Of a stretch of DNA of 64,000 nt, positions 19,004 to 45,407 are shown piece by piece. The first letter of the stretch is position 1, and each line of letters begins with the position of its first letter. The notes under the pieces are model-generated. The model searched no databases and was not told where the DNA came from. It saw only the letters and a program-made list of their open reading frames with translations. The position numbers and the translations under genes are program-made. Origin of the DNA: Chlorobium sp. (lineage in GTDB: Bacteria > Bacteroidota > Chlorobiia > Chlorobiales > Chlorobiaceae); contig SZXW01000003.1 in the NCBI GenBank assembly GCA_005862285.1, positions 1-64,000 of the forward strand, in the 5' to 3' direction.

Positions 19004-19411
19004 CTTCACCAATCTTTTCACCCGGCGGGAATTGTTAACCGTGTAAACTAATAGATGATAAATTTACCTTACCCGCGTACCTTTTGGTTCAAGCGAGTCA
19101 GTAGTTTTCGCTTGCTGTTATTTATGGCGTTTATTGATGATTCACTTACGTTAGCCATGTCACTCTGCTCCTTGACCCTCTCTACCTGCTATTGGCAGAT
19201 TCAGCTTTCCCTCAAGGGATCGCCTACAGTTTCCTGCGGGTACGTTTCCTGGCAGTTTCACACAGGCTGATTGCTCAACCTGCATGTGCCAGTGGGGCCA
19301 ACAACGGTACAGTTGGTTTTGCAAAGAACAATTCAATTACACGACTTCACGTCGCACCATCTATATTAACACATAGGGGGGCTAATACTTGTCAACATTC
19401 GGACACCAGTG
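19004..19411. other. non-coding stretch, no gene recognised
   Basis: This stretch of 408 bp lies between the IS3 right end and the next glycosyltransferase. Several short frames are open, but none shows a family motif or a ribosome binding site. It is less AT-rich than the genes on both sides and may be part of another mobile remnant. Nothing specific can be supported. Confidence 0.4.
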
Positions 19412-30526: not shown

Positions 30527-30610
30527 GGATGTTGGAGGTTGGAGGGAAGAAGGACTGAGTGGGTACTGGGTAGTGGGGAATTCAGGACTGAGGGTAATTC
30601 GGTTCAAAGG
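30527..30610. repeat. heptamer repeat array
   Basis: Units GGACTGA, GTGGGTACTGGGTAGTGGGG and a GAATTCAGGACTGAGGG run fill the gap between the aminotransferase and the convergent AbiEii gene. No gene. Confidence 0.7.
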
Positions 30611-30619
30611 ATAACAGCT

Positions 30620-31480
30620 TCATGATATCTTAATCCTTGTTATCAAGGTTGCGAGCTTTTCTGCGAAGAATTGACGGCTCCACAACCTGAGGCTTTGCCG
30701 GAAGGCAGGTGGGAGGAAGGGGGCCACATCCTCTGCGGCTTTCTTCCAGTCGATGGAACCGATTTTGTCGCTCAATGCAGCATTCAGCCAATCATGGTCG
30801 ATGTTCAGGAATTCATCTGACCAGGGGCCGTATTGGTGTAGTGCATTTTCAAGCAGCGGAATGTTTGGAATAACGCCCTGGGATATGTACCAGCCGAAAT
30901 CGAACCAGTCCCGGCCCTTGATGTATGGTCGACATAGCAGCGCATGAATCTTGAGTGAGAAGTTGCTCGACAGCGTCTGGGTGCAGAGCTCGAAGTCGAG
31001 AGGAAAATCAAGATAATGGTACTCAAATTCAGAGCCTTCCGGCGGATCTGTGTCGATTTCGAGTTTGACCTTCAATTTCCGTCTGTTCCGGCTGCCGAAA
31101 AAAGAAAGGTTGAGCTGACTGGCAAAGGAATCATCTTTCAATAAAGCCTGACGGACAGCACGATCCATATTGCCCCGGTCAGCAAGTTCGCAGCGGATGC
31201 CGAATTCAGCCATAACTGCTTCAAGTGTTTCGAAATACGGATTCCACCGTAACTCTTTGTCAGGTATACGCAGAATGAAATCAAGGTCTTCTGAAAATCG
31301 AGGCAATCCGTGAAGGATACGCAGGCAAGTGCCTCCCTGAAAGACCGCGACTTCAAAAAAATCGGCACGCCATAATCCGTAAAGCGCAACTTCCTGCAGG
31401 ATTTCCTTGAGGGCTTGCTCTTCCTGTCCTGCATCAGGGGCGGAATAACTCTCCAGTCGTTTACGCAGAATATCGATCAT
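30620..31480 (-). CDS. AbiEii/AbiGii-type nucleotidyltransferase toxin
   Basis: A 286-residue protein of the type IV AbiE toxin family. The nucleotidyltransferase signature is AVFQGGTCLRILHGLPRFSEDLDFIL (Gly-Gly-Thr followed by Asp-x-Asp). A second acidic region KLKVKLEIDTDPP follows, and then the C-terminal IKGRDWFDFGWYISQG family motif. AbiEii toxins modify target RNA or tRNA by nucleotide transfer and are held in check by AbiEi. The gene overlaps its antitoxin by 4 bases on the minus strand. All active-site residues are visible, so it is probably functional. Confidence 0.9.
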   Translation of the reverse strand: MIDILRKRLESYSAPDAGQEEQALKEILQEVALYGLWRADFFEVAVFQGGTCLRILHGLPRFSEDLDFILRIPDKELRWNPYFETLEAVMAEFGIRCELADRGNMDRAVRQALLKDDSFASQLNLSFFGSRNRRKLKVKLEIDTDPPEGSEFEYHYLDFPLDFELCTQTLSSNFSLKIHALLCRPYIKGRDWFDFGWYISQGVIPNIPLLENALHQYGPWSDEFLNIDHDWLNAALSDKIGSIDWKKAAEDVAPFLPPAFRQSLRLWSRQFFAEKLATLITRIKIS

Positions 31481-32127
31481 CGGGTCAGTTCCTCCTGTAT
31501 GGCCGATATGTTTGTTTCCATGCGTTTATGCTGATAGACCGGGCGTAATCGTTCAAGATCGTTTTTGTCAATGGAGGCGAATTCGTCCTTGTCGATGCGC
31601 ATCCCTTCGATCAGGCTTCCGAGGCCCTGATAATCAAGCTTTCGAAGGCAGAAAATGTCAAGTAACGCCCTTAATGGTTGCGCTATCAGACAACTCTGTC
31701 CGGAATGAGTATTTCGATCGACGCCCTCAAGAAACCAGCCGGTGTTCAACGCTAACGGGTAATAAAGGAATTGACCGAATTTCGGAATGTCGAGAATCCG
31801 TTGTCGCCGATCCGGTGTGACAGACATCGTGACTGGTGTCGATTCCGGAATCCATCCATGATAGCTGAGCGCTGTTTCGAAAGAGATGTATGATCCGGGC
31901 AACAGTGCCTGTGCAAGCACAAAGGGATGTACATTGCCTTGCTTCACCGTCGATGTGAGCAGGTAACGGCCGCGTCGCAGGCGTATCAGGTCTCCTCGAT
32001 GCAAAGCACGGTTTACCAGGTTATAACGGCGTTGCGGAGTGCCGTTGAGCAGGCGGGACAATTGCGCTTCTGTGATAACGCGCTCACCCAACCCGGCGTT
32101 GGTAATATGTTTCGTCAATGTTCCCAT
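31477..32127 (-). CDS. AbiEi-type antitoxin/transcriptional repressor
   Basis: About 216 residues from the ATG at 32127; the frame is open to an ATG at 32166. The N-terminal winged helix-turn-helix reads ITEAQLSRLLNGTPQRRYNLVNRALHRGDLIRLRRGRYLL. The core YISFETALSYHGWIPES is the typical AbiEi stretch. The protein should repress its own promoter and neutralise the AbiEii toxin. An inverted repeat ACTTTC/GAAAGT sits at 32139-32157. If that is the operator, the start is more likely 32127 than 32166. Upstream is a long heptamer array. Confidence 0.88.
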   Translation of the reverse strand: MGTLTKHITNAGLGERVITEAQLSRLLNGTPQRRYNLVNRALHRGDLIRLRRGRYLLTSTVKQGNVHPFVLAQALLPGSYISFETALSYHGWIPESTPVTMSVTPDRRQRILDIPKFGQFLYYPLALNTGWFLEGVDRNTHSGQSCLIAQPLRALLDIFCLRKLDYQGLGSLIEGMRIDKDEFASIDKNDLERLRPVYQHKRMETNISAIQEELTR

Positions 32128-32138
32128 TAATGTAAGAT

Positions 32139-32157
32139 ACTTTCGATATATGAAAGT
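32139..32157 (-). promoter_or_regulatory. candidate AbiEi operator
   Basis: Inverted repeat with 6-bp arms ACTTTC and GAAAGT around GATATAT, just upstream of the preferred abiEi start. AbiEi proteins are known to bind inverted repeats in their promoter; binding here is inferred. Confidence 0.4.
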
Positions 32158-32166
32158 AACAAACAT

Positions 32167-32435
32167 TTGTTGGTTGGGAATGGGGAAGCTGGACTGAGTG
32201 CTGAGGACTGGGGAGTGGGTAATGGGTAATGGGGAGTGGGGAATTCAGGACTGAGTGCTGAGGACTGAGGACTGAGGACTGAGGAATGGGGAGTGGGGAA
32301 TTCAGGACTGAGGACTGAGGGAAGAGTGGGAATTGGGATGTTGGAAGCGTTAGGTGCTATGTGTTAGGTGGTAAACTCTGCATTTTCCTTTTTCCCAAAT
32401 TCCACGTTCCAACCCTGGAACAGCACCGTAACTGA
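32167..32435. repeat. heptamer repeat array
   Basis: A long run of GGACTGA, GTGCTGA, GGGTAAT and GGGGAGT units, with GGGGAATTCAGGACTGAG repeated three times. It separates the AbiE module from mqsA. No gene is seen. Confidence 0.85.
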
Positions 32436-32846
32436 TTACATTTGTTGTATTTCTTTTAAAAGATCAGGGTGCCGGTCAATGAGTTTCAGTAATTTAAGCA
32501 CAGGTGCAGGTGGTTTGGATTCTCCGCGCTCATATCTGGAAAACGCGATTTTTCCGATACCGAACGATAATGCGAGCTGTGCCTGAGTGAGGTTCAGTTT
32601 TCTTCGGATGCGCCGGATGTCTGCTGAAGCGTCTCCCTTGATAGCTCTTACCAGTCCTTCCTGAGCTTCCGTATAGCGACGGTAGCTTACTTCATCCCAT
32701 ATTCCTTCACCGCACTCCGGGCAGAATTTGCCGTGCATGTCATGCAAGGTCATGGATTTGCCGCCATACGTGAGTGTTTCCTCCTGAACCTTGTCGATCA
32801 AGCCGTTATGACCGCAGGAAGGACATTTATCTGTATTTGTGATCAT
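32436..32846 (-). CDS. mqsA: MqsA-like antitoxin (zinc finger plus helix-turn-helix)
   Basis: A 136-residue protein. The N-terminal zinc site is formed by two Cys pairs: CPSCG near residue 8 and FCPECGEG near residue 41. The C-terminal Xre-like HTH reads KLNLTQAQLALSFGIGKIAFSRYERGESKPP. This two-domain plan is that of MqsA (YgiT). It lies downstream of mqsR on the same strand. The 108-bp gap between toxin and antitoxin contains a strong hairpin. It should repress the operon and inhibit MqsR. Confidence 0.9.
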   Translation of the reverse strand: MITNTDKCPSCGHNGLIDKVQEETLTYGGKSMTLHDMHGKFCPECGEGIWDEVSYRRYTEAQEGLVRAIKGDASADIRRIRRKLNLTQAQLALSFGIGKIAFSRYERGESKPPAPVLKLLKLIDRHPDLLKEIQQM

Positions 32847-32915
32847 AGTTCTATGAAAAATTGAATCAAAGAAAACCGGTTATCTGATCAGCCTTAGATT
32901 CTATTATGAGAGAAC

Positions 32916-32955
32916 AGACGATCTTCAGGTATTGCTCTGTACCTGAAGATCGTCT
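32916..32955 (-). promoter_or_regulatory. perfect 16-bp hairpin between mqsR and mqsA
   Basis: Arms AGACGATCTTCAGGTA (32916-32931) and its exact reverse complement (32940-32955), with an 8-base loop. It overlaps the first base of the mqsR stop codon. In the transcript there is no U-run after it, so it is not a standard terminator. It could be a processing or stabilising structure, or limit read-through into the antitoxin gene. Confidence 0.75.
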
Positions 32956-33263
32956 CATTTTGCTTTGAACTGTATTACGAGTGGTCTTGCATCGTTGAAA
33001 TCTGTTATCTTAATATAAACGGGAATGTTATCCGGTGTTTTGCCTTGATAAACGTCTTGCCAGAGTCTATGGTCAGAATGAGTGGTCATTGATTTGTAAA
33101 AATCATCTCTTGTCAGTTTCAGAACCACTTCCCGCATCAGGGGTTCGGTTAACCCTAATTCCAAACCGCCTCTTAATGCCGTCATAGTGAACGGTCGTGA
33201 ATTATTGTCCGCAACTGTTTTTTTAATTTTTTCAAGTTTGTAATGCGGGGTTCTTTTTTCCAT
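32955..33263 (-). CDS. mqsR: MqsR-like mRNA interferase toxin
   Basis: A 102-residue protein. The N terminus EKRTPHYKLEKIKKTV and the block LTRDDFYKSMTTHSDHRLWQDVY match MqsR of E. coli almost residue for residue, including the catalytic Lys/Gln region. VYIKITDFNDARPLVIQFK closes the fold. MqsR cleaves mRNA, mainly at GC-containing sites. The toxin precedes the antitoxin, as in E. coli. A 12-bp perfect inverted repeat lies 6 bases upstream of its start. Confidence 0.92.
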   Translation of the reverse strand: MEKRTPHYKLEKIKKTVADNNSRPFTMTALRGGLELGLTEPLMREVVLKLTRDDFYKSMTTHSDHRLWQDVYQGKTPDNIPVYIKITDFNDARPLVIQFKAK

Positions 33264-33268
33264 GAATT

Positions 33269-33309
33269 AATTTTATCATTTTGTTGAATTTAATCATAAT
33301 GATAAAATT
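33269..33309 (-). promoter_or_regulatory. candidate operator/promoter of mqsRA
   Basis: Perfect inverted repeat, arms AATTTTATCATT (33269-33280) and AATGATAAAATT (33298-33309), ending 6 bases from the mqsR start codon. The position suits autoregulation by MqsA. The arms are not the AACCT/AGGTT type known from E. coli, so the binding protein is inferred. Confidence 0.5.
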
Positions 33310-33336
33310 ATTTAAATTGATTTTTTGCTATTCTAT

Positions 33337-33824
33337 TGGGTACTGGGGTCTGGAAAGTGGGGAATTCAGGACTGAGGACTGAGGACTGAGTGGGAAATGG
33401 GGAATTCAGGACTGAGTGCTGAGGACTGGGGACTGGGTAGTGGGGAATTCAGGACTGAGTGCTGAGGACTAAGGACTAAGTGGATACTGGGGAATGGGGA
33501 TTGGGGATTGGGAAGAGCCCCGGAGGGGCGGAAGATTGGTAGCGCGGGGTGAAACCCCGGGTAGGGAATCCCCAAATATCTGGGTTTAGCTCCGGAGGAG
33601 CGACATATCGTTATAAAGGTAAGAGGTGGGAGGGAAGAAGGTCTGGGAGGAATTCTGGGGGATGTCCGTAAATAAGTAAAATAAGAGAATAGGTCCCGGG
33701 TCGTTGGTAATGGGAAGCGGGATGCCGCTCATACGAAGCTAACCCATTATTTTTATAGTCGGGGTTTTACTCTTGGCTACCTATATACCGCCCCTGACGG
33801 GGTTAAAATCAAGTACTACAACAC
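33337..33824. repeat. heptamer arrays plus two copies of the ~100-bp palindromic repeat
   Basis: Heptamers (GGACTGA, GTGCTGA, GGGGATT) run from 33337 to 33512. One full palindromic repeat lies at about 33513-33620 (GAGCCCCGGAGGGGCGG ... CTCCGGAGGAGCG). A divergent copy lies at about 33718-33812 (TAGTCGGGGTTTTACTCT ... CCGCCCCTGACGGGG). From about 33483 this block is repeated almost exactly at 35704. No gene. Confidence 0.85.
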
Positions 33825-34030
33825 TTATAAAATGGGGAGATCATCTTTATTTGATTTAACCATTTGAATGACAAGTTTCATTCCGCAAGCTTTCGCATAC
33901 CTTCGTAGTGTATCAAGCGATGGTGAGTGATTCTTTTTTCCGAGGCTCGATTCGATACGTGCCAGAACCGGCTGCGAAACTCCCATTCGTTTCGCGACCT
34001 CTGTTTGAGTTAGTCCTGCAGCGGTTCGGG
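33483..34030. repeat. 550-bp direct repeat, copy 1
   Basis: Almost identical to 35704-36249. It includes heptamers, two palindromic repeats and the 3' part of the Xre antitoxin gene. The copies are in the same orientation, 2.2 kb apart, and flank one AAA ATPase gene. Confidence 0.9.
33825..34030 (-). pseudogene. truncated Xre antitoxin (duplicate of the HigA-like gene)
   Basis: Only the C-terminal part is present: TAAGLTQTEVAKRMGVSQPV, the rest of the HTH and the end MKLVIQMVKSNKDDLPIL. It equals the intact protein at 36046-36393 except for one Thr/Lys change. At 34030 homology stops, and the open frame continues into repeat sequence up to 34166, giving a meaningless N terminus. No toxin partner accompanies it. 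It is the end of a 550-bp direct duplication. Confidence 0.85.
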
Positions 34031-34094
34031 AAAGAATCTGAGGGACGCACATAAATAAATCAAAAAATAGGTTCTGGGGTACTGGGAAGTGGGA

Positions 34095-34165
34095 AGTGTT
34101 CAGCTCCGTAGGAGCGGCATGTCGGTAGCGCGGAGTGTCAGCCCCGGTGAGTGTGATCCCTGTCA
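34095..34165. repeat. palindromic repeat, short copy
   Basis: GCTCCGTAGGAGCGGCATGTCGG followed by GCGGAGTGTCAGCCCCGG. A member of the same family as the copies at 33513 and 44812 but shortened. Confidence 0.6.
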
Positions 34166-34235
34166 TGAGCGGTTTTTAGCAGGTTGTCCGATGTATGGGA
34201 TATGTCGTTGGTGTCGGGTCACAGGTTCCGGCGTG

Positions 34236-35450
34236 TCAGTAAAGAAAGCCGAAAAGCCAGAGAGGGATGGTGTTTCGGTAACCGATTTCCAGGTCGTCCA
34301 CAACGAGGAAACTCTTTTCGATGCCGCTGATCTGCCGGTATCCCTTGCTTTTACCACCGATCTCAAACGTGTACATGTTGTTGACGAAAAAATCGCCTTT
34401 GGCTGAAACTTCGATCGATGTATCGACAAGGCTTGGGTGCAGGGTGCAGGTGTTACGGATCTGGTTTACAAAAAACAGTTCCCGCAGCGTTCCGGTATTG
34501 ATGTTCTCTGTAATGGCATACATCAGGTTGCTGTTTTCAAGAAATATCTTTTCAGGTTTGCTCATCACTTCATAGCCTCTTCCGTGTGAGCGGACAAGAT
34601 TCAGCAGCCTCGCATTCTGAAGGTTTTCAAGGTACTCGTAGAGGCGAGACCTGGAAATTTCCGTAACTTCTGCCAGTTTGGTGATATTGGGAGTGAACGG
34701 AACAGAAGTTGCAAGCAGGAATAACAGTTTTTTAAGCTTTGAAAGCTGTCGCGTTTCTATGCGGTTTACATAAGGGAGATCGACTTCAAGAATGTGATTG
34801 ATGACCTCGCGTAATCGGAATGGATATGTCCCGCTGCTTTCGAGAAAGAAGGGGTAGTAGCCGTTAATCAGGTAATCACGCAACGACTTGCGTACCGTTA
34901 TCTCCATGCTGATGGTTTCGGCAATCTGCCGGTGGTTTTCGAGAATCGTTTCGAGCGTACAGGCGGGAAAGGCGGTTTCATGGACGAAGTTAATGTACTC
35001 GCGAAGCGAGAGTCCGTGAAGATTGAAGATAATCGCCCTTCTGCTAAGGTCGGCTTTCTGTCTGGAAATCTGCAGAAGACTGGAGCCTGAAAAAACAATA
35101 CGCAGCTTCGGCAGCGAGTCATACATAGATTTGATGTGGAGTGACCAGTCCGGATATTTATGGATTTCATCGAGCAGCAGGAGTTCGCCACCAAGCTCGT
35201 GAAATTCTTTTGCAAGATCAAAAAGGTTGTGCGCAAGAAAGTACGGGCTGTCGACCGAAATATAAAGGGCATTATCCGAATTGCCGTATCGTTCCCGGAC
35301 ATGCTGCAGCATCATGGTGGTTTTGCCGGTACCCCTCGCCCCAAGGATTCCGATGCAGCGTTCATTCCAGTCGATCAGGTCGTAGAGGTACCGTTTTTTC
35401 GTGCTTACTGATGCGATCAGTTTCAACTGCTCTTGCTGAAATCGCTCCAT
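34236..35450 (-). CDS. AAA ATPase with DUF4143-type C terminus
   Basis: A 404-residue protein. Walker A is ILGARGTGKTTMM near residue 34-46. Walker B is ELLLLDEIHKYPDW near 91-104. Sensor LRIVFSGSSLLQI follows. A middle winged-helix part (TKLAEVTEISRSRLYEYLENLQNARLL) and a C-terminal nuclease-like region (FFVNNMYTFEIGGKSKGY) match the AAA_14/DUF4143 family. Function in vivo is not established. Such genes are common in variable regions of bacterial genomes. It is a single gene flanked by the two copies of the 550-bp repeat. The ATG at 35450 fits the family start. Confidence 0.85.
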   Translation of the reverse strand: MERFQQEQLKLIASVSTKKRYLYDLIDWNERCIGILGARGTGKTTMMLQHVRERYGNSDNALYISVDSPYFLAHNLFDLAKEFHELGGELLLLDEIHKYPDWSLHIKSMYDSLPKLRIVFSGSSLLQISRQKADLSRRAIIFNLHGLSLREYINFVHETAFPACTLETILENHRQIAETISMEITVRKSLRDYLINGYYPFFLESSGTYPFRLREVINHILEVDLPYVNRIETRQLSKLKKLLFLLATSVPFTPNITKLAEVTEISRSRLYEYLENLQNARLLNLVRSHGRGYEVMSKPEKIFLENSNLMYAITENINTGTLRELFFVNQIRNTCTLHPSLVDTSIEVSAKGDFFVNNMYTFEIGGKSKGYRQISGIEKSFLVVDDLEIGYRNTIPLWLFGFLY

Positions 35451-36045
35451 GTTTTTTTAACGTAATTTATCTCAGCATTGTAAAGTGTGTTATACAATAA
35501 TAGTAAAATATTGTAATATCTGCGATGCGTTGTTATTATTCGATGTCTATTTTCTAGAATTCTGTAGGTCTACTGGTAGACGTCCGGAAATAAGTAAAAT
35601 AGGAGAATAGGTACTGGGGAATGGGGAATTCAGGACTGAGTGCTGAGGACTGAGTGGGTACTGGGGAGTGGGGAACTCAGGACTGAGTGCTGAGGACTAA
35701 GTGGGTACTGGGGAATGGGGATTGGGGATTGGGAAGAGCCCCGGAGGGGCGGAAGATTGGTAGCGCGGGGTGAAACCCCGGGTAGGGAATCCCCAAATAT
35801 CTGGGTTTAGCTCCGGAGGAGCGACATATCGTTATAAAGGTAAGAGGTGGGAGGGAAGAAGGTCTGGGAGGAATTCTGGGGGATGTCCGTAAATAAGTAA
35901 AATAAGAGAATAGGTCCCGGGTCGTTGGTAATGGGAAGCGGGATGCCGCTCATACGAAGCTAACCCATTATTTTTATAGTCGGGGTTTTACTCTTGGCTA
36001 CCTATATACCGCCCCTGACGGGGTTAAAATCAAGTACTACAACAC
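35451..36045. repeat. AT-rich leader, heptamer array and palindromic repeats
   Basis: 35451-35560 is AT-rich and may hold the promoter of the ATPase gene. Heptamers follow at 35613-35732. Palindromic repeats lie at about 35733-35840 and 35935-36030. Everything from 35704 duplicates 33483-34030. No gene. Confidence 0.8.
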
Positions 36046-36249
36046 TTATAAAATGGGGAGATCATCTTTATTTGATTTAACCATTTGAATGACAAGTTTC
36101 ATTCCGCAAGCTTTCGCATACCTTCGTAGTGTATCAAGCGATGGTGAGTGATTCTTTTTTCCGAGGCTCGATTCGATACGTGCCAGAACCGGCTGCGAAA
36201 CTCCCATTCGTTTCGCGACCTCTTTTTGAGTTAGTCCTGCAGCGGTTCG
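35704..36249. repeat. 550-bp direct repeat, copy 2
   Basis: Same orientation and nearly identical sequence as 33483-34030. Here the antitoxin gene continues intact past 36249, so this is probably the source copy. Confidence 0.9.
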
Positions 36250-36393
36250 TGCTTCCAGCAACGCTGCCAGTGCCACGAATTCGTCTTCGAGAGCATCATA
36301 CACAATCTTGAACTCCCGGTCTGCCGCACATTTTTCAGCGGCTATAGCTCGCGGATTGAAAGGAACCGGATTGTATTGCATCTCTTCATTCAT
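36046..36393 (-). CDS. HigA-like Xre-family antitoxin
   Basis: A 115-residue protein. A helical N-terminal part (AEKCAADREFKIVYDALEDEF, split by the HTH linker) precedes the helix-turn-helix LTQKEVAKRMGVSQPVLARIES near 50-72. The C-terminal end LRRYAKACGMKLVIQM is typical of HigA antitoxins paired with RelE/HigB toxins of the Gp49 type. The toxin gene ends 49 bases upstream on the same strand (toxin first). The last 200 bases are duplicated at 33825-34030. Confidence 0.85.
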   Translation of the reverse strand: MNEEMQYNPVPFNPRAIAAEKCAADREFKIVYDALEDEFVALAALLEARTAAGLTQKEVAKRMGVSQPVLARIESSLGKKNHSPSLDTLRRYAKACGMKLVIQMVKSNKDDLPIL

Positions 36394-36441
36394 GGCTTGA
36401 TTTCCTTAATGACACCTCAATTTATTTGTTACGAAGCCTGA

Positions 36442-36855
36442 TTACTTTGTTGGGCGGTGCTCAAAATCCTCATGTACTATGTGTACACTCCGGTTTCTCC
36501 GCTCCGGCCGCCTTGTACTCAGACCTCTCACGACAATAAATATAGAGGTGCCAAGAATTTTGGCAATCCGTAACTCTTTATCCGGCGTTTTCTGTGTTTT
36601 CTTGATGAATCCATGCAGGATGAGGACCCGATGCTCAATAACGCAACAAAAAAAAGCGCGGCCGATACCTTCAGGGCCTCTGGCACGGATTTCAAACAAT
36701 CCATTTCCGAAAGAGCGGGTATATGGTAAACCCAGGTTCGGGCCAGATACCTCGATACGTTCAGTAATTCGAAGAAAATTGGCGAAGACTCCTTTTGGCC
36801 AACTTTGAATCTCTTCCTGAACCGATTCATTGAAAAAGAATATGCGATATCTCAT
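36442..36855 (-). CDS. HigB/RelE-like toxin (phage Gp49-like family)
   Basis: 137 residues from the ATG at 36855; the frame is open 11 codons further. VQEEIQSWPKGVFANFLRITER and GPNLGLPYTRSFGNGLFEIRARG, then FFCCVIEHRVLILHGFIKKTQKTP, are the core of the HigB-like RNase fold. The core ends at RIAK near residue 100. The remaining residues (GLSTRRPERRNRSVHIVHED and tail) are Arg-rich and not family-like, so the 3' end may be derived from an inserted or fused element. The first 100 residues look intact. Paired with the HigA-like antitoxin downstream. Confidence 0.8.
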   Translation of the reverse strand: MRYRIFFFNESVQEEIQSWPKGVFANFLRITERIEVSGPNLGLPYTRSFGNGLFEIRARGPEGIGRAFFCCVIEHRVLILHGFIKKTQKTPDKELRIAKILGTSIFIVVRGLSTRRPERRNRSVHIVHEDFEHRPTK

Positions 36856-36944
36856 CTCTAAAATAGCATATATGGTATAATAGTTCAATTAAAAAACGAT
36901 AATTTGCCGTGAAACATTATAATACGTATAATATACTTGATTTT

Positions 36945-37195
36945 GCAGTGTGGATGTTTGAGGTTGGAGGGAATTCAGGACTGAGTGCTGAGGACTGAGG
37001 ACTAAGTGGGTAATGGGTAATGGGTACTGGGGAATGGATACTGGAAAGTGGGAGGTTAGAGGGAAGAAGTGCTGAGGACTGAGTGCTGAGGACTGAGGAC
37101 TGAGAGGGTAATGGGTAGTGGGGAATGGGAACGGGATCGGGGAAGTTGTTCACGAATTGCAAGAATTTTCACGAAGGGGAACGGGAACAGGGGGG
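36945..37195. repeat. heptamer repeat array
   Basis: GGACTGA, GTGCTGA, GGGTAAT and GGGTACT units from 36965 to 37135. A short CACGAATTGCAAGAATTTTCACGAAGG stretch follows (unit CACGAATT; related pieces at 24162 and 38470). No gene. Confidence 0.8.
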
Positions 37196-37198
37196 TGA

Positions 37199-38389
37199 TC
37201 AGTCGAATAGATCGATAGGGTTTATTTCCAGAAATTCCTGCCAGGGAATTCCTGAATTGCCGACAAGGATAACCTTGTCAGGGTTGAAATGAAGGGTGAA
37301 GGCCTCCATTCCTGAGGCACGTTGTGTATGGCCGCTTTTGATTTCAAGACCGATAACTTTTCCGGAATGTACGAGAACAAAATCCACTTCATGATTTCCC
37401 TGCCGCCAGTAATAGAGGTTCAGAGCGCCGGTTCGGGTATGATTGAGGAGGTGGGCGCCGATTGCCGATTCAACCCATCGACCCCATTTTGACGGGATTG
37501 ATGAGATCTCCTGAAATGTCTCCTGCTGCTGCGCGCTGATCAATGCGGTGTTATGGACCTGAAATTTCGGACTGGACGCTCTCAGTCTGATTGTTTCAGG
37601 GCTGTATTTTTCCAGTCCTCCCAATAAACCTGCCGTATCGAGGAGGCGAAGGTAATGTGCAAGGGTTGTGGTATTGCCTGCATCCTGGAGCTGGCCCAGG
37701 ATTTTGGTATAGGAAAGAATCTGCCCTGAATAGCTGCATCCGAGTTCGAACAGCCTTTTCATCAGGGCAGGTTTGTCTACACGGGTCAGCATGAGAATAT
37801 CTTTTGAAATGCTTGTTTCGATAAGAGAATCTGCAATGTACCGTGCCCATCGCGATTCATCGTTTATCAGCGTCGCAGCACCCGGATATCCGCCGAACCA
37901 GACGTATTGTTCAGGCGTGAAGTCGAACGCTTTTTTCATTTCAAGGTAGCTCCAGTGACCGAGGAAGATGGTTTCAAACCTGCCGGCAAGTGATTCGGTA
38001 AGTCCCTGCTGAAGCAGAAGCCTCGATGATCCCAGAAGAATCACTTTGAGTGACCGACGGGCAGCTGAGTCAGCATCCCATTCCTTTTTTACCGTTTCAC
38101 TCCAGTTGGCGATTTTCTGTATTTCATCAATGATCAGTACCGCGTCTTGTCGTTCAGACCCGCGGAGCTTGATCCTTGCCGTTTCCCATTGCTGACTGAT
38201 CCAGCTTGACTGTCCTGAGGAAACCTGGTCGGCGGAGGCGAAATGTACAGGCAGGGCAGTCGTTTGCATAAACTGCAGTGCAATGGTCGTTTTACCGACT
38301 TGTCGTGGTCCGTAGAGGACTTGAATGAATCGCCGCAGTTCCGTTTCAATCCGCTTTGTCAGCAGCGATTTTTGAGATCGTTCTATCAT
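37199..38389 (-). CDS. AAA ATPase/DUF4143 protein
   Basis: A 396-residue protein. Walker A is VLYGPRQVGKTTIA near residue 24-37. Walker B is DAVLIIDEIQKIANW near 83-97. The sensor strand LKVILLGSSRLLLQQG and arginine region SLAGRFETI follow. The middle holds a winged-helix segment, and the C-terminal DUF4143 part contains LYYWRQGNHEVDFVLVHSGKVIGLEIKSG with nuclease-like Glu/Asp-x-Lys spacing. Biochemical role is unknown; the family is widespread in mobile and variable regions. It is only distantly similar to the ATPase at 34236. A perfect 22-bp palindrome lies about 20 bases upstream of its start. Confidence 0.88.
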   Translation of the reverse strand: MIERSQKSLLTKRIETELRRFIQVLYGPRQVGKTTIALQFMQTTALPVHFASADQVSSGQSSWISQQWETARIKLRGSERQDAVLIIDEIQKIANWSETVKKEWDADSAARRSLKVILLGSSRLLLQQGLTESLAGRFETIFLGHWSYLEMKKAFDFTPEQYVWFGGYPGAATLINDESRWARYIADSLIETSISKDILMLTRVDKPALMKRLFELGCSYSGQILSYTKILGQLQDAGNTTTLAHYLRLLDTAGLLGGLEKYSPETIRLRASSPKFQVHNTALISAQQQETFQEISSIPSKWGRWVESAIGAHLLNHTRTGALNLYYWRQGNHEVDFVLVHSGKVIGLEIKSGHTQRASGMEAFTLHFNPDKVILVGNSGIPWQEFLEINPIDLFD

Positions 38390-38407
38390 TTTGTAAGTTA
38401 CTCACCT

Positions 38408-38429
38408 TATTGAGTAAATTTACTCAATA
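38408..38429 (-). promoter_or_regulatory. perfect 22-bp palindrome upstream of the DUF4143 ATPase
   Basis: TATTGAGTAAA followed directly by its exact reverse complement TTTACTCAATA. A third half-site (GTTACTCACC) is adjacent at about 38397-38405. Its position just before the ATPase start codon suggests an operator. The regulator is unknown. Confidence 0.6.
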
Positions 38430-38750
38430 TATAAAACAATTTCTTCAGGGTAAAACCATGGGAGATGTTGTCCACGAATTGCAGGAATTTACACGAAGGG
38501 GAGGAGGACTGAGGACTGAGTGGGTACTTGGGAATGGGGATTGGGAAGTGATAGCGGGACTGGGAAATAGGGAATTCTCCGGGATTTTGATCAGTATTCT
38601 AAGAAATTGTATCGCAGACAAACTACGATGGCTGCTTCATGATATAATCAACGTACCCATTTATGGGTTTTTTTGAGCTTCTGTGAATATATTTATATTT
38701 GGATTTGAATAGAGATTTGAATTCAGGTCAGAATATAACATGGAAATATC
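38430..38750. repeat. short repeats and empty AT-rich leader
   Basis: A CACGAATTGCAGGAATTTACACGAAGG piece (38475-38501) is followed by heptamers (GGACTGA, GGGTACTTGGGAATGGGG) to about 38575. The rest to 38750 is a leader of the YefM/ParE operon. An open frame at 38356-38676 has no family features and is discarded. Confidence 0.6.
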
Positions 38751-39041
38751 ATGAAAAGCATTTGTATATCAAGCGACATCATACCACTCGGTGAGTTCAA
38801 GACGGGTATTTCTACCTGTTTTAAAAAGGTACAGGCAACAGGTCACCCGCTGATTATTACACAGAACGGTAGACCTGCCGGCGTTCTGCTTTCGCCTGTC
38901 GAGTATGATAACCTCGTATACCGCAAGCAATTTACTGAATCGGTGGAGCAAGGCCTGACGGAAGCCGCAGCAGGAAGCGTGCATAGTACAGAGGAGGTGA
39001 GAACGAGGTTTGCAGAAAAAAGAGCGTCAAGAAAACCATGA
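38751..39041 (+). CDS. YefM/Phd-family antitoxin
   Basis: A 96-residue protein. The N-terminal DNA-binding part reads SDIIPLGEFKTGISTCFKKV. PLIITQNGRPAGVLLSPVEYDNLVY is the conserved Phd/YefM core with its N-G-x-P-x-x-V-L. The C-terminal acidic/basic tail (residues 60-96) should bind the toxin. It overlaps the ParE-like toxin by 4 bases. Plus strand, opposite to the neighbouring modules. Confidence 0.9.
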   Translation: MKSICISSDIIPLGEFKTGISTCFKKVQATGHPLIITQNGRPAGVLLSPVEYDNLVYRKQFTESVEQGLTEAAAGSVHSTEEVRTRFAEKRASRKP

Positions 39042-39334
39042 ACGTTGTCTGGACAACCGAAGCGCTCAGAATGCTCGATGAAATCGAGCAGTTTATCGCT
39101 CAGGATAATCCTCAACGGGCTTCCGATTTTATTGATCGACTGCTTGAAAAAGGTGATTCCATTGCCTCATTTCCTGAAATGGGAAGAGTTGTTCCAGAGA
39201 TTGCTCAACCAGGGATCCGGGAGATTCTGGTCGGAACCTACCGGATAGTGTACAAGGAGACTCCTGATCATATAGTCATTCTAACGGTGTTTGAAGGTCA
39301 TCGTTCAATGCGTTATGAAGAACTTGACCCATGA
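39038..39334 (+). CDS. ParE/RelE-family toxin
   Basis: A 98-residue protein. VVWTTEALRMLDEIEQFIAQDNPQRASDFI is the N-terminal helical pair of ParE. FPEMGRVVPEI and ILVGTYRIVYKETPDHIVILTVFEGHRSM form the beta sheet, with the usual Arg/Tyr pair. ParE toxins act on DNA gyrase, while RelE relatives cleave mRNA; sequence alone does not decide, but the FEGHR ending favours ParE. Confidence 0.9.
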   Translation: MNVVWTTEALRMLDEIEQFIAQDNPQRASDFIDRLLEKGDSIASFPEMGRVVPEIAQPGIREILVGTYRIVYKETPDHIVILTVFEGHRSMRYEELDP

Positions 39335-39881
39335 ATGGGTCTCATCGTATGAAGGGACATCGTTACTAAGTATACTTATCACCCTGAAGGTGACTGATTC
39401 CATTTCTTTAAGGGGTTTCAGTGATGCCTCAGGACTATTTACCAGCGTTGCCGGATAACCGATATGCCGCTGCGGAGCTAAATACAAAAAATAGAAGGGA
39501 TATAACCCGGGGGTTCACCACTGGGCTACCGGTATATCATCCCTACGGGATTTGAAGATGAGGAGTGGGAGGGAATTTAGGACTGAGTGCTGAGGACTGA
39601 GGACTGAGTGGGGAATGGGTAATGGGTAATGGGGACTGGGGAAGAGCTCCGGAGGGGCGGGAGATTGGTAGCGGGGGGTGTAAACCCCGGGTAGGGAATC
39701 CCCAAATATCTGGGTTTAGCTCCGGAGGAGCGACATATCGTTATAAAGGTAAGAGGTGGGAGGGAAGAAGTGCTGAGGACTGAGTGCTGAGGACTGAGTG
39801 CTGAGTGCTGAGGACTGAGTGCTGAGTGCTGAATGCTGAATGCTGAGGACTGAGAATGTGCGGAAAGGGGGCTGGCCTGGA
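39335..39881. repeat. heptamer arrays around a palindromic repeat
   Basis: After 200 bases without features, heptamers begin near 39567. A palindromic repeat copy lies at about 39643-39750 (GAGCTCCGGAGGGGCGGGAG ... CTCCGGAGGAGCG). Then comes the purest GGACTGA/GTGCTGA/ATGCTGA run of the window (39770-39858). The open frames on the minus strand here only translate the repeats. No gene. Confidence 0.85.
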
Positions 39882-40292
39882 TCAATGCAATCTGACAACG
39901 GCTCGGGCGAATGTTTCGAAATCCTGTAACCGGTGCATGGCGATCGAATGAACGATATCCCAGTTCACCGTATCGTAATTGTGTACTGCAAGGTTTCGGA
40001 AGCCTACCGCTTTTTTCATGCGCAGCGCGAGATCGGCATCGATGATCCCGGCCTCATGCAGCAGGTCGAACGTTTTACCCATCGTGTCCGGAGCGGGAGT
40101 ATCCTTTTCGGCAATGATGTGCGCCCCGATATCGACACAAAGCTGAACAGCTCTTGTCAGGTTCAGGGTAAGAATATCCTGGGCATCGTAATCTCTTGAG
40201 AGACTTTCGGCATCGAGGGGACATTTATCCCTGACACGTGCAAGGGCACGGCGAAGCGATTCAAGTTTCTGTTCGATCAGCGGCCAATCCAT
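39882..40292 (-). CDS. hepT: HepT-like HEPN toxin (DUF86)
   Basis: A 136-residue all-helical protein. The RNase motif R-x4-H-x-Y is present as RNLAVHNYD near residue 98-106, and the upstream helix LTRAVQLCVDIGAHII is typical. HepT is an RNase toxin inactivated by AMPylation of its Tyr by MntA. It overlaps the mntA-like gene by 16 bases on the minus strand. All motif residues are present, so it is likely functional. Confidence 0.9.
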   Translation of the reverse strand: MDWPLIEQKLESLRRALARVRDKCPLDAESLSRDYDAQDILTLNLTRAVQLCVDIGAHIIAEKDTPAPDTMGKTFDLLHEAGIIDADLALRMKKAVGFRNLAVHNYDTVNWDIVHSIAMHRLQDFETFARAVVRLH

Positions 40293-40690
40293 GCCGTCCT
40301 CCTTTCATCGAGAATTCGCTTTCGATAAGGCATGAAATCCGCCTGGTCCAGCAGGTGGCGGGTTATGTAGAAAGCATGTCTGGATGGGTCCCCGGTTATT
40401 CTTCGGCCCTTCCGGAGGATCTCTCCTGTCAGGGGTTCACCTGCCGACCGGAGATCGACGAGATCGACCGGGCGCCCGGTTGCTGCAGCGAGATCTTCGA
40501 TAAGCTGCATTTTGGAGGCTGAATCGAGAGGAGCATCTGCAGAGACGGCAAGGTCGAGATCGCTCTCCGCCCTTGCCTCGTTGTGAGCCAATGAACCGAA
40601 CAGAATCGAAAGGCGGATATCTGGGTGTTTTTCCATGACCTTTCTGATCAATATATCGATGGTGTTCTGTTCTTCCTGATGAACGCTCAT
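40277..40690 (-). CDS. mntA: MntA-like nucleotidyltransferase antitoxin
   Basis: A 137-residue minimal nucleotidyltransferase. The signature G-S-x10-D-x-D is exact (FGSLAHNEARAESDLDLAV, key GS and DLD), with the third acidic strand in RPVDLVDLRSAGEPL. It would AMPylate the HepT Tyr. An inverted repeat TACTC/GAGTA lies at 40714-40728, 24 bases upstream of the start, as a possible operator. Confidence 0.9.
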   Translation of the reverse strand: MSVHQEEQNTIDILIRKVMEKHPDIRLSILFGSLAHNEARAESDLDLAVSADAPLDSASKMQLIEDLAAATGRPVDLVDLRSAGEPLTGEILRKGRRITGDPSRHAFYITRHLLDQADFMPYRKRILDERRTAWIGR

Positions 40691-40713
40691 ATGGTTTCCT
40701 GATGCAGATTATG

Positions 40714-40728
40714 TACTCCTGTAGAGTA
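40714..40728 (-). promoter_or_regulatory. small inverted repeat upstream of mntA
   Basis: TACTC-CTGTA-GAGTA. It may be an operator or part of the promoter of the mntA-hepT pair. Evidence is positional only. Confidence 0.3.
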
Positions 40729-40754
40729 TAACCATATCGTACTTCCCGCGCAAG

Positions 40755-41010
40755 TTGGGGAGTTGAAGTACTGAGGACTGAGTGCTGAGTGCTGAGGACT
40801 AAGTGGGTACTGGGGAATGGGTAATGGGAAGGATGTGAAGTGCTGAGGACTGAGGACTGAGTGGGTACTGGGGAATGGGGATTGGGAATTGGGAAGGATG
40901 GGAAGCTCCGGAGGGGCGGAAGATTGGTAGCCGGTTGCGCAGGCGCCGGGAAAGATCAGCGGCACCACCCCATTTATTTTTCAGCTCCTCTGGAGCTTTT
41001 TTTATTGCAG
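40755..41010. repeat. heptamer array, palindromic repeat and terminator-like end
   Basis: Heptamers (GTACTGA, GGACTGA, GTGCTGA, GGGTAAT) run at 40766-40905. A palindromic repeat copy follows from 40909 with GCTCCGGAGGGGCGG. AGCTCC-TCT-GGAGCT and a run of T at about 40983-41002 look like a plus-strand terminator. No gene to 41111. Confidence 0.75.
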
Positions 41011-41111
41011 AATGAAGAGCATTATTTCAATTTGAAATGCTTGTCGCTATGGCGAACGCAAGTCTGTTTGAATGGGCATCCCAAAGTTTTAAAAAATCAA
41101 ATGGTTAATCT

Positions 41112-42521
41112 ATGAAACCTGCAGATTTGTCATCGGTGAAGTTCGGGACGAGCGGAGTGAGGGGATTGGTCGCAGATCTGACGGACAAGGTCTGTTATAT
41201 TTTTACCAGGGCATTTATCGAAAGCCTTGCCTCAGATGCCGAAACAGTTGTCATCGGTCATGACCTGCGGCCGAGCAGCCCTGCTATAACCAGTGCATGT
41301 ATCGCTGCGATCGAAGATTCGGTCTGCAGGGTCATCTATGCGGGAGCTCTTCCTACACCTGCAATCGCCTGTTATGCAATAGACAACCAACGGCCGGCCG
41401 TTGTCGTAACCGGCAGCCATATCCCCTATGACCGGAACGGCATCAAGTTCTACCGCCCGGATGGAGAGATTACGAAAGCAGACGAGGATGCCATTACATC
41501 CGCGGATGTAACCGTACCGGAGGCCATCGATATTAATCCTCTGCCCGCCATCGAACAGAACGTTCACGATGCCTATATCCGACGATATGTAGAATTTTTC
41601 GGCGCCGGGTCCCTTTCGGGTATGCGGGTTGCCGTGTACCAGCATTCGAGTGTTGCGAGGGATATCATAAAAATTGTTCTCGAAAGCCTTGGTGCCGATG
41701 TGATCCCGCTCGGGCGGACCGATTTGTTCGTGCCTGTCGATACGGAAGCGGTCAGGGAGGAGGATGTGCTGCAGGCGGAACAGTGGGCGCGAGAGTATAC
41801 CTTCGATGCTCTTGTCACAACGGATGGTGACGCCGACCGGCCGATGATCGCTGACGAGAACGGACAATGGCTTCGCGGGGATATCGTCGGGATACTCACG
41901 GCGATGTACGCTTGTGTCGGCGTTGTCGTGACTCCTGTCAGTTCCAATACGGCGCTCGAAAAGAGCGGGTTTTTTGACACCACTGTCCGGACAAGGATAG
42001 GTTCCCCTTACGTTATCGACGGGATGCAGCAGGCTGATCAGCATAAAACCGTCGTAGGGTTCGAAGCCAACGGAGGGTTCCTGCTTGGCAGCGATCTTTT
42101 ACGCGATGGCAGGAAGTTGTCGGCCCTGCCGACACGCGATGCGCTCCTGCCGATCCTCGCCCTGCTTTCGATGGCAAGGGAACGGAAGTGCAGGGTTTCG
42201 GAACTTCCATCGCTATTGCCGCAACGCTATACGGCCAGTGACAGAATCAAGGATTTTCCTGTTGAAAAAAGCCGATCTGTCATCGCAGCGCTGACCGAAT
42301 CACGGCAAGCTGCCGGGCGCCTGCTCGCTCCGGATTGCGGAGCTATAGTGGATGTCGATACCACAGACGGGTTCAGGGCAACCTTCGAATCGGGCGATAT
42401 CGTACACCTTCGTCCTTCGGGGAACGCACCGGAACTGCGGTGCTATACCGAATCGGACTCACCCGGGCGCGCCCGCAGATTATGCGAAGAGTGCCTTTTA
42501 AGAGTGATGGGGATTGGGTAA
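41112..42521 (+). CDS. phosphohexomutase (phosphomannomutase/phosphoglucomutase family)
   Basis: A 469-residue four-domain alpha-D-phosphohexomutase. SSVKFGTSGVRGLV is the start. The phosphoserine site is Ser102 in VVTGSHIPYDRNGIKFY, where most relatives have TASHNP. The metal loop DGDADRP lies near 238. GFEANGGF and the C-terminal phosphate-binding LRPSGNAPELRCYTES follow. It interconverts hexose 1- and 6-phosphates, most likely mannose or glucosamine. It is next to glmS and not far from gmd and fcl, so it feeds either UDP-GlcNAc or GDP-mannose. Substrate choice cannot be read from sequence. Confidence 0.85.
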   Translation: MKPADLSSVKFGTSGVRGLVADLTDKVCYIFTRAFIESLASDAETVVIGHDLRPSSPAITSACIAAIEDSVCRVIYAGALPTPAIACYAIDNQRPAVVVTGSHIPYDRNGIKFYRPDGEITKADEDAITSADVTVPEAIDINPLPAIEQNVHDAYIRRYVEFFGAGSLSGMRVAVYQHSSVARDIIKIVLESLGADVIPLGRTDLFVPVDTEAVREEDVLQAEQWAREYTFDALVTTDGDADRPMIADENGQWLRGDIVGILTAMYACVGVVVTPVSSNTALEKSGFFDTTVRTRIGSPYVIDGMQQADQHKTVVGFEANGGFLLGSDLLRDGRKLSALPTRDALLPILALLSMARERKCRVSELPSLLPQRYTASDRIKDFPVEKSRSVIAALTESRQAAGRLLAPDCGAIVDVDTTDGFRATFESGDIVHLRPSGNAPELRCYTESDSPGRARRLCEECLLRVMGIG

Positions 42522-42880
42522 TGGGTAATGGGTAATGGGTATTGGGTAATGGGTAATGGGAGGTTAGAGGGAAGAAGGACTGAGTGCTGAGGACTGAGGA
42601 CTGAGGGAAGAGTGGGGGAATGGGGATTCGGAAATGGCTGTTTTGAGCCCCGACATATCAGGGGCGAAATATTTGTAGCCGGGGTTTGCATCCCGCGCTA
42701 CCGATATACCGCCCCTGACGGGGCTATCCCATTCCTCATTTCCCATTACCCATTCCCCAGTACCCCACTCAGTCCTCAGCACTTCAACTCCCTCCCACTC
42801 CCCATTTCCCATTACCTAACAACCAACTCTTTTCGTATATTACCTCCGTTGAAACACCCCCAAATTCAATTTATTACATC
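42522..42880. repeat. heptamer arrays in both orientations around a palindromic repeat
   Basis: GGGTAAT tandem units begin at 42514 inside the end of the mutase gene and run to 42560, followed by GGACTGA units. A palindromic repeat lies at about 42645-42730. Reverse-oriented heptamers (TCCCATTACCCATTCCCCAGTACCCC, unit CCCATTA) lie at 42728-42825. The last 50 bases are the glmS leader. No ribozyme-like structure is seen. Confidence 0.8.
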
Positions 42881-44725
42881 ATGTGTGGAATCGTTGGTTA
42901 TATCGGCGGCCGGGAGGCTGCGCCATTGCTTTTGCATGGTCTTAAACGTCTCGAGTATCGCGGATATGATTCTGCCGGTATTGCCGTTCTGAATGGCAAG
43001 CTATCAGTTTTGAAGCAGAAAGGCAGCGTGGCCCTGCTCGAGAAACTTGTTGAGGAAGGTAAAAACACAACTGCCGATTCCACGGTCGGCATCGGGCATA
43101 CCCGGTGGGCGACACACGGCGACCCGAGCGACCGCAATGCGCATCCTCACTTGAACGCATCCGGCGATATCGCCCTCATCCACAACGGCATCATCGAAAA
43201 CCATGCAGCGCTGCGCACTGAACTGACGAAGCATGGGTACGTGTTCAAAAGCGACACCGATTCAGAGGTGCTTGTTCACCTGATCGATCATCTCTGGAAA
43301 AACATTCCCTTCATCAATTTCGAATGTGCCGTACGGCACTCTCTCTCCCTTGTCGAAGGGACATACGGTCTCTGCGTGATTTCACAACGCGAGCCAGATA
43401 ACCTGATCGCTGCGCGAAAGGGCAGTCCGCTCGTCATAGGTGTTGGAGAGCAAGAGTACTTTATCGCATCCGATGCAGCTCCGCTGATCGAGTATACCCG
43501 AAAGGTGGTTTACCTTGCGGACGGCGAGATGGCGGTTGTCAGAAGGGATGGCTTCAGGGTCATGACGGTAGATAACGTCGAGCATGAAGCTGTTGTGACC
43601 GAACTCGATTTCGAGCTCGAGGAGATCGAGAAGGGCGGATACGAGCATTTCATGCTGAAAGAGATCTTCGAACAGCAGGAGGTTATGCGGGACGTGATGC
43701 GCGGCCGTATCAAGCTCGATGAAAACAGGGTCCATCTCGGCGGTATTCAGGACTATTCCGATAAGCTCCGCAATGCGGACAGAATACTCATCCTTGCCTG
43801 CGGCACGAGCTGGCATGCCGGGCTGATCGGCGAGTACCTCATCGAGGAGTTTGCCCGCATACCGGTCGAGGTCGATTACGCTTCGGAGTTCAGGTACCGG
43901 AACCCTATTGTCGGTCAGAACGATGTCGTGATCGTCATCTCACAGTCGGGTGAGACGGCCGATACGCTTGCCGCGATGCGGATCGCCAGGGAAAGAGGCG
44001 CCTGTGTCATGGGGATCTGCAATGTCGTTGGTTCCACTATTGCCCGGGAAGCTCATTTCGGTATGTATACCCATGCCGGACCGGAAATCGGCGTGGCTTC
44101 GACCAAAGCGTTCACGGCGCAGGTGATCGCTCTTGTCATGCTTGCCCTGGAACTGAGCAGGGAGCGTACCTTGAGCAATGCCGAAATGACACTCTACCTC
44201 AGGGAGCTGCTCGCCGTTCCACAGAAAGCGGAGGAGATTTTCCGGCTCAATGACGAGATCGTCTCGATAGCCGAACGGTTCAAGGATGCGCGGCATTTCC
44301 TCTATCTCGGCAGGGGATACAACTTTCCTGTCGCGCTCGAAGGGGCGCTGAAGCTCAAGGAGATCTCCTACATCCATGCCGAAGGATACCCAGCAGCTGA
44401 AATGAAACATGGCCCGATCGCTCTCATCGACGAGAACATGCCGGTGATCGTGATCGCCACCCATGACAGCACTTACAAGAAGATGCTGAGCAATATCGAG
44501 GAAGTCCGTGCAAGGGGAGGGAAGGTGATCGCCATTGCCAATGAAGGCGATGATGAAATCAACAAACTTGCCCATCATGTCATCACCATTCCGGAAACCC
44601 TCGGGGCGCTCAGTCCGCTTCTTACGGTCCTGCCGCTGCAGCTGCTTGCCTACCACATCGCAACGCTCCGCGGATGCAACGTGGATCGTCCGAGGAACCT
44701 CGCGAAATCGGTTACGGTGGAATAG
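42881..44725 (+). CDS. glmS: glutamine-fructose-6-phosphate aminotransferase (isomerizing)
   Basis: A 614-residue protein of normal length. The N-terminal glutaminase starts Met-Cys-Gly-Ile-Val (nucleophile Cys after Met removal). LEYRGYDSAG, GIGHTRWATHG and GDIALIHNGIIEN follow. Two SIS domains follow: ILACGTSWHAGLIGEYL near 305, VISQSGETADTLAA near 349, and FLYLGRGYNFPVALEGALKLKE near 470. The C-terminal end is DRPRNLAKSVTVE, with the fructose-6-phosphate-binding Lys. It makes glucosamine-6-phosphate for UDP-GlcNAc, the precursor of peptidoglycan and of most sugars in this locus. Confidence 0.97.
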   Translation: MCGIVGYIGGREAAPLLLHGLKRLEYRGYDSAGIAVLNGKLSVLKQKGSVALLEKLVEEGKNTTADSTVGIGHTRWATHGDPSDRNAHPHLNASGDIALIHNGIIENHAALRTELTKHGYVFKSDTDSEVLVHLIDHLWKNIPFINFECAVRHSLSLVEGTYGLCVISQREPDNLIAARKGSPLVIGVGEQEYFIASDAAPLIEYTRKVVYLADGEMAVVRRDGFRVMTVDNVEHEAVVTELDFELEEIEKGGYEHFMLKEIFEQQEVMRDVMRGRIKLDENRVHLGGIQDYSDKLRNADRILILACGTSWHAGLIGEYLIEEFARIPVEVDYASEFRYRNPIVGQNDVVIVISQSGETADTLAAMRIARERGACVMGICNVVGSTIAREAHFGMYTHAGPEIGVASTKAFTAQVIALVMLALELSRERTLSNAEMTLYLRELLAVPQKAEEIFRLNDEIVSIAERFKDARHFLYLGRGYNFPVALEGALKLKEISYIHAEGYPAAEMKHGPIALIDENMPVIVIATHDSTYKKMLSNIEEVRARGGKVIAIANEGDDEINKLAHHVITIPETLGALSPLLTVLPLQLLAYHIATLRGCNVDRPRNLAKSVTVE

Positions 44726-44734
44726 GGAATAGGG

Positions 44735-44937
44735 TTTTTAGTGCTGAGTGCTGAGGACTAAGGACTGAGGGAGGAGTGGGTAGTGGGGATTGGGAGTTGG
44801 GAAGGATGGGAAGCTCCGGAGGAGCGACATATCGGTAGCGCGGGGTGTAAACCCCGGGTATGGAATCCCAAAATATCTGGGTTGAGTCCCGACATGTCGG
44901 GAGCGGGATATGGGTAGCCGGTTGCGCATGCGTCTGG
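44735..44937. repeat. heptamer array and full palindromic repeat
   Basis: GTGCTGA/GGACTAA units at 44740-44775. The repeat at about 44812-44937 is among the most complete: GCTCCGGAGGAGCGACATATCGG, GCGGGGTGTAAACCCCGGG, AATCTGGG-like core and TCCCGACATGTCGGGAGCG. Confidence 0.85.
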
Positions 44938-44947
44938 ATGTGCCAGA

Positions 44948-45166
44948 TCAGGCAGATAATTTCTGGGAGTCAAGAGGCAGCTTGTTCAGTACCAGTTCCT
45001 TGAGATTGATTTTTTTTCCTGCGTTGTCTATATCCATTCCGACCAGTATACCGTTTTGGTCGTAATCAAGTACAACACCTTCCGAGATTTCAATGCTTTC
45101 CGCGCTCTTATTGTCAGAGAATTCGATATATAAAGAATCTGTATCAGGGTAATAATTAATTTTCAT
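44948..45166 (-). CDS. DUF2283 family protein
   Basis: A 72-residue protein. MKINYYPDTDSLYIEFSDN, VVLDYDQNGILVGMDIDNA and a C-terminal Leu-rich tail are the DUF2283 pattern (D-x-D-x-L-Y-I, then D-x-x-G-x-x-V-G-I-E/D). It overlaps the upstream DUF4258-like gene by 11 bases. Such pairs look like toxin-antitoxin modules, with DUF2283 as candidate antitoxin, but this has not been shown as far as I know. Confidence 0.85.
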   Translation of the reverse strand: MKINYYPDTDSLYIEFSDNKSAESIEISEGVVLDYDQNGILVGMDIDNAGKKINLKELVLNKLPLDSQKLSA

Positions 45167-45407
45167 CTTTGAATCTCCGGTCAGGAAATGCGTTATGTAT
45201 CGTTATTTTGTCTTCGAGTGTGATGACCCTTAAAATTTTTCCTTCAAGTTCCTCGATTCTGCCCCAAAACCGATAACGGTTAAGTTCCTGCTGTTCAATC
45301 TTGAGAGGGTTTTCCAACACACGAATGCACCATTCTTTCCTGATATAAGGGCGTTTTCTTATAACTTCATTTTCAAAATATGGGGTGAACGAATAAACGG
45401 ATGACAT
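45156..45407 (-). CDS. DUF4258-like small protein, putative partner of DUF2283
   Basis: An 83-residue protein. The motif RPYIRKEWCIRVLENPLKIEQQ and then RYRFWGRIEELEGKILRVITLEDKITIHNAFPDRRF fits small proteins found next to DUF2283 (BrnT/RelE-like beta sheet ending in a 'hNAFPDR' stretch). It could be an RNase toxin. Coupled by overlap with the DUF2283 gene. Confidence 0.7.
   Translation of the reverse strand: MSSVYSFTPYFENEVIRKRPYIRKEWCIRVLENPLKIEQQELNRYRFWGRIEELEGKILRVITLEDKITIHNAFPDRRFKDEN

Follow-up and report, generated by a model that had tools for sequence, protein, structure and literature searches.

The stretch of DNA analysed here, referred to as the window, comprises 64,000 nt of a 2.61-Mb Chlorobium genome that is divided among 15 contigs and rated 100% complete with 0.05 contamination. 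The genome has a strong match to Pfam BChl_A (E 3.1e-229), which we take to be the green sulfur bacterial Fenna-Matthews-Olson protein. The window carries a toxin gene, mqsR, followed by its antitoxin gene, mqsA (Table 1). The predicted MqsR aligns over its full length with MqsR of PDB 3hi2 (E 1.5e-19), and both catalytic residues (Lys56 and Tyr81 in E. coli numbering; roles described in PMC9636575, available text) are retained; the NCBIfam search returned no family for MqsR itself. The predicted MqsA additionally matches Pfam HTH_3, so that the CxxC zinc part and the HTH part of an MqsRA antitoxin are both present, and mqsA lies downstream of mqsR as this class requires, though at an unusual remove. 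Judged by these matches, both genes are intact members of the MqsR and MqsA families. The preliminary description of this DNA had placed a 108-bp gap between them, and the gene coordinates indeed give 108 nt (32847-32954).

Table 1. Features of the mqsR-mqsA locus, in the order in which the minus strand is read
Feature	Position	Strand	Match
Operator-like palindrome TTTATCA-N3-TGATTAAA upstream of mqsR, within inverted repeat 33265-33313	33289..33306	-	Perfect match
mqsR toxin gene, 102 aa, intact, without GCU	32955..33263	-	Pfam MqsR_toxin E 1.4e-32
Perfect 16-bp hairpin, 8-nt loop CAGAGCAA, its outermost base being the third base of the mqsR stop codon	32916..32955	-	
Remainder of the inserted or replaced spacer, without significant match in relatives; holds the sole GCU of the gap (32892-32890)	32858..32915	-	
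11 nt ahead of mqsA, still alignable to sister locus L103	32847..32857	-	
mqsA antitoxin gene, 136 aa, intact, with eight GCU	32436..32846	-	Pfam MqsA_antitoxin E 2.2e-44; TIGR03830 E 7.3e-40

The hairpin in this gap has the geometry that had been described. Its two arms of 16 nt each (32916-32931 and 32940-32955) are 100% complementary, its overlap with the mqsR stop codon amounts to one base (32955, the A of TGA), and on the mqsR strand it lacks a U-run, there being four T among the 8 bases past the stem (GTTCTCTC). Folded alone as RNA, the 40-mer reaches -25.5 kcal/mol. The 161-nt region around it gave -40.3, compared with an average of -26.67 for its shuffles (z -3.69), and 0 of 200 shuffles did as well. 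Ten mononucleotide shuffles of the window contained no perfect stem of at least 12 bp with a loop of 3-15; these stem counts are by position, so that one hairpin may score more than once. The hairpin is far beyond chance. Among 376 ORF ends surveyed (mechanical ORFs, 45-nt stretches folded), the mqsR end ranked third in stability; 12 ends reached -20 kcal/mol, and none of the 88 ends with a same-strand gene within 30 nt did so. Across 464 kb of the same genome (the window and 20 further stretches) there are 17 perfect stems of at least 12 bp, of which three exceed 16 bp; 13 of the 17 lie outside the window, and eight of these 13 sit 5-34 nt past the end of a mechanical ORF. The window itself holds two more perfect hairpins, at 7637-7679 and 18282-18329, each with a 17-bp stem; the ORFs in which they lie look transposase-like by eye.

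To place this arrangement in context, we compared it with other mqsR-mqsA pairs. MqsR was detected in 17 of the 61 genomes searched as relatives and, by the family model, in 25 of the 394 phylum genomes, which belong without exception to two genera of one family. All 21 other family pairs that were parsed have a gap of 11-43 nt (11-13 nt in 15, 19-43 nt in five and 43 nt in locus L008). The mqsA start was taken as the ATG closest to the zinc motif; some relatives have another ATG 3-6 nt earlier, with which their gaps would be shorter still. The value for L008 was counted from the aligned stop and read off its sequence; the automatic parse gave 77 because its mqsR is frameshifted. Eleven loci were fetched from other bacteria, and the gap was 0-7 nt in each of the 10 parsed, with one left unparsed. 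The expectation that toxin and antitoxin genes are normally tightly coupled is thus borne out by all 31 other parsed pairs, whose gaps are 0-43 nt; the splitting of the pair by an inserted hairpin is accordingly genuine, and it is unusual. In this count repeated loci entered once, and L016-L020, L031, L104-L107 and L110 were excluded as non-simple pairs, several of them being the same genomes twice. Within the 31 other gaps, each taken with the preceding 20 nt, the longest perfect stem is 5 bp; a 108-nt gap with a 16-bp stem belongs to this locus alone among the parsed pairs. This comparative result, namely the absence of the hairpin and long gap from the other parsed sequences, is what is new here. 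A conserved regulatory RNA was rejected as an explanation, as the hairpin occurs in 0 of the 21 other parsed family pairs and Rfam offered no credible match: the only hit at the hairpin is a sub-threshold one to a microRNA family (E 0.24), judged to be chance, and the sole match in the window that reaches gathering score is a group II intron away from this locus (D1-D4-7, 19174-19316 on the minus strand, 79.3 bits). Some of the related loci are themselves altered, mqsR being frameshifted, interrupted or shortened in L008, L016, L017 and L018, while the mqsA start is still recognisable in L008, L017 and L018. In the sister-clade loci L008, L103, L089, L091, L097 and L101 mqsA reads ATGAATAC, and at the present locus it reads ACAAATAC; the mqsA ATG here stands six bases upstream of ACAAATAC, where L008 and L103 share an ATG.

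Since the gaps of the 31 other pairs are short and free of perfect stems above 5 bp, the hairpin and about 58 further bases are a lineage-specific insertion or replacement that is peculiar to this genome, not a conserved element. On this comparison, about 97 nt of unrelated DNA has replaced the short mqsR-mqsA spacer, and its first part is the perfect hairpin. The new DNA spans from the mqsR stop to about 11 nt before mqsA, where alignability resumes: the 11 nt together with the first mqsA codons align with L103 over 25 nt, a result equalled by 5 of 1000 shuffles. We also tried three other accounts of the spacer, and none was supported. First, retention of the ancestral spacer right after the hairpin was matched equally well by 302 of 500 and 445 of 1000 shuffles. 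Second, a tandem duplication of the spacer and the mqsA start gave a self-alignment score that 244 of 2000 shuffles reached. Third, a dispersed or mobile palindrome of the REP or MITE type should recur, and no second copy was found in the genomes, viral contigs, plasmids or phages. The hairpin is single-copy in its own genome, its two-arm pattern occurs in one of 296 phylum genomes (its own, and 0 of the 295 others), and the viral contigs, plasmids and phages searched gave no match to the hairpin region. For the 123-nt region searched against 64 other genomes of the genus, the best match was no better than E 0.022. With up to one mismatch allowed, a single arm turned up at scattered places in 13 other genomes of the genus, and in two of these the match was exact. 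Inspection by eye showed no flanking duplication.

Such a change may be without consequence. A small fold-back insertion or replacement between the genes could be a harmless scar with no function, which would suit its presence in one genome, the failure to find a source in the collections searched, and surroundings made up of repeats, toxin-antitoxin genes and helix-turn-helix genes. However, both arms are still perfect across 16 bp, and the change falls exactly at the stop codon with neither gene damaged. We regard a neutral scar as possible, if somewhat doubtful; because nothing shows selection, it is nearly as likely as the RNA-level role discussed below. Amplified libraries can yield inverted repeats, and the fold-back might accordingly have been made during amplification or assembly. 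The completeness, contamination and contig figures of the genome (100%, 0.05 and 15) speak against such an artefact, as does the fact that the new DNA includes about 58 nt beyond the palindrome, and we consider it the least credible of all the explanations.

If the hairpin does have a function, transcription termination is an obvious candidate. One hallmark of an intrinsic terminator, a stable hairpin at the end of the gene, is present, but the other, a U-run directly past the stem, is absent on the mqsR strand, and the terminator scanner did not call the hairpin on the minus strand. On the plus strand the scanner called it terminator-like, but the T-run in question is where the mqsR coding sequence ends; in total the scanner found three sites in the window, no more than in its shuffles (mean 3.5). 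In E. coli, a terminator dropped from about 90% efficiency to below 10% when the stop codon ahead of it was brought from a distance of 28 bp to one of 5 bp, and this effect was abolished without translation (PMC4824070, available text). The corresponding distance at this mqsR is zero. Because of the missing U-run and a stop codon this near, which represses terminators in E. coli, a classical intrinsic terminator is unlikely, and partial termination is also less likely given the missing U-run and the start of the hairpin at the stop codon. A more elaborate version would be a partial terminator gated by the ribosome, in which a translating ribosome melts the hairpin and polymerase enters mqsA, with transcription otherwise stopping before mqsA. 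The position of the hairpin at the stop codon would fit the coupling reported in E. coli (PMC4824070, available text), and the eight of 13 other perfect stems located shortly past ORF ends would also agree with such gating. Nevertheless, it suffers from the same lack of a U-run, and several of the other long stems hold an internal A/T run whereas the mqsR hairpin stem has none, so that we think a gated terminator unlikely.

With termination disfavoured by the lack of a U-run and by the stop-codon repression seen in E. coli, we therefore favour, tentatively and at a little short of even confidence, a barrier acting at the RNA level: instead of terminating transcription in the classical intrinsic way, the hairpin would serve as a 3'-end barrier or a processing barrier on the mRNA, through which toxin and antitoxin become uncoupled. 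If the hairpin acts at all, this is its most likely role. The points in its favour are the gap of 108 nt compared with 11-43 nt in the family, the rarity of the stem, the stability of the gene end and the missing U-run. The hairpin would reform once the ribosome has left mqsR and would then close off and protect the mqsR message at its 3' end and block exonucleases, perhaps also marking a processing site. It would further block ribosome re-initiation and translational coupling to mqsA. Expression of toxin and antitoxin would thereby be uncoupled, and production of mqsA would depend on read-through RNA or on a promoter of its own. Counting against the proposal, the hairpin is kept in no relative, so that there is neither covariation nor any sign of selection, and a neutral scar would account equally for these observations. 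In addition, the 108-nt gap yielded no convincing mqsA promoter: the scan found -10-like hexamers at two points, 52 and 57 nt ahead of mqsA, with poor -35 matches (2 and 3 of 6), and inside mqsR no minus-strand promoter scored above the scanner cut-off. We also considered a loss of the mqsA Shine-Dalgarno sequence, which scores 0.2 kcal/mol here and -3.3 to -3.9 in 14 of 21 relatives. This was set aside as uninformative because 270 ORFs of the same genome (mechanical ORFs, median -1.7) do not outscore random 20-mers (median -2.5).

Several known systems bear on the barrier proposal. In E. coli mqsRA the toxin gene also comes first and the antitoxin gene second, the proteins are homologous, and mqsA is expressed partly apart from mqsR (PMC6918082, available text). 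It is driven there by two promoters located within mqsR, whereas the present locus has an inserted hairpin and spacer; the E. coli promoters imply that uncoupling need not be lethal. A second precedent is the cip-cel operon of Ruminiclostridium cellulolyticum, in which stable stem-loops between the genes of one operon serve as cleavage signals and end protectors and so set stoichiometry through RNA cleavage and stabilisation (PMC10311766, available text). That is a different operon in a different organism, and according to the same text the cleavage was measured there, whereas cleavage at the present hairpin is hypothetical. The axe-txe locus of Enterococcus faecium is likewise a toxin-antitoxin locus with a hairpin near the toxin gene, which acts as a terminator or attenuator in vitro with a suspected effect on mRNA stability (PMC3760812, available text); however, it lies about 20 bp after txe and beyond both genes, not between toxin and antitoxin. 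Among the literature matches listed, no title or abstract opening mentions an mqsR-mqsA intergenic hairpin, and such a paper may exist elsewhere.

The hairpin might instead act as DNA, in the form of a cruciform or a protein-binding palindrome. Its perfect symmetry would suit this, and nothing else does. The operator-like palindrome of the locus sits upstream of mqsR instead, and the gap contains no copy of it even with 3 mismatches allowed; a DNA element is thus very improbable. The upstream palindrome itself is a likely MqsA operator, and a similar palindrome block was seen by eye upstream of mqsR in 10 other loci.

The distribution of GCU in the two genes gives a weak lead of another kind. 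E. coli MqsR has the core site G^CU (PMC8546651, available text) and cuts single-stranded GCU, a GCU in a stem-loop substrate being cut about 20-fold less (PMC4905990, available text). The site of the present MqsR may differ. There is no GCU between 33320 and the hairpin, and the first, at 32892, lies just past it; what counts as the first GCU of the transcript depends on the actual transcript start. Only some of the eight GCU in mqsA are predicted to be unpaired. Conceivably, then, MqsR would destroy the antitoxin half of the message and spare the GCU-free, hairpin-capped mqsR mRNA, which would amount to positive feedback encoded in the transcript. The absence of GCU from mqsR has P ~0.01 under synonymous recoding with the codon usage of the genome; in this post hoc analysis of mechanical ORFs, mqsR is the one of 69 short ORFs in the sample without GCU, P <=0.01 was obtained for two of the 69, and two of 930 coding windows of mqsR length lack GCU. 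On the other hand, GCC is depleted more than GCU in mqsR (0 seen, 4.1 expected), and the gene may simply be AT-rich. Pooling 29 loci, including the present one (0 GCU compared with 3.6 expected), gave 107 GCU seen and 107.2 expected, and hence no avoidance, with the codon usage of this genome applied to all loci. The pool covers 29 of the 30 loci (L097 was not parsed), and several of its mqsR stretches are partial. Any avoidance would therefore be peculiar to this locus, and we consider a self-sparing toxin message quite improbable.

Toxin-antitoxin operons with the reversed gene order pose the question of how enough antitoxin gets made. The locus described here is a natural rearrangement that has exchanged tight coupling for an RNA hairpin and a long spacer, and because related genomes offer uninterrupted control loci, an uncoupling effect would be directly measurable; otherwise, as a single unconserved element, its significance is modest. 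The neighbourhood of the locus shows further peculiarities. The sequence GAATTCAGGACTGAG has 8 copies in the 2.61-Mb genome, all on the plus strand within 30578-36985 and in the gaps between the larger genes, and resembles a local repeat that sets small gene cassettes apart. The sequence GGACTGAGGACTGAG is found at 20 places in the whole genome, of which 12 fall within 32262-49657. Finally, two helix-turn-helix ORFs, at 33825-34166 and 36046-36393, are nearly identical over their C-terminal ~67 residues and differ before that point.
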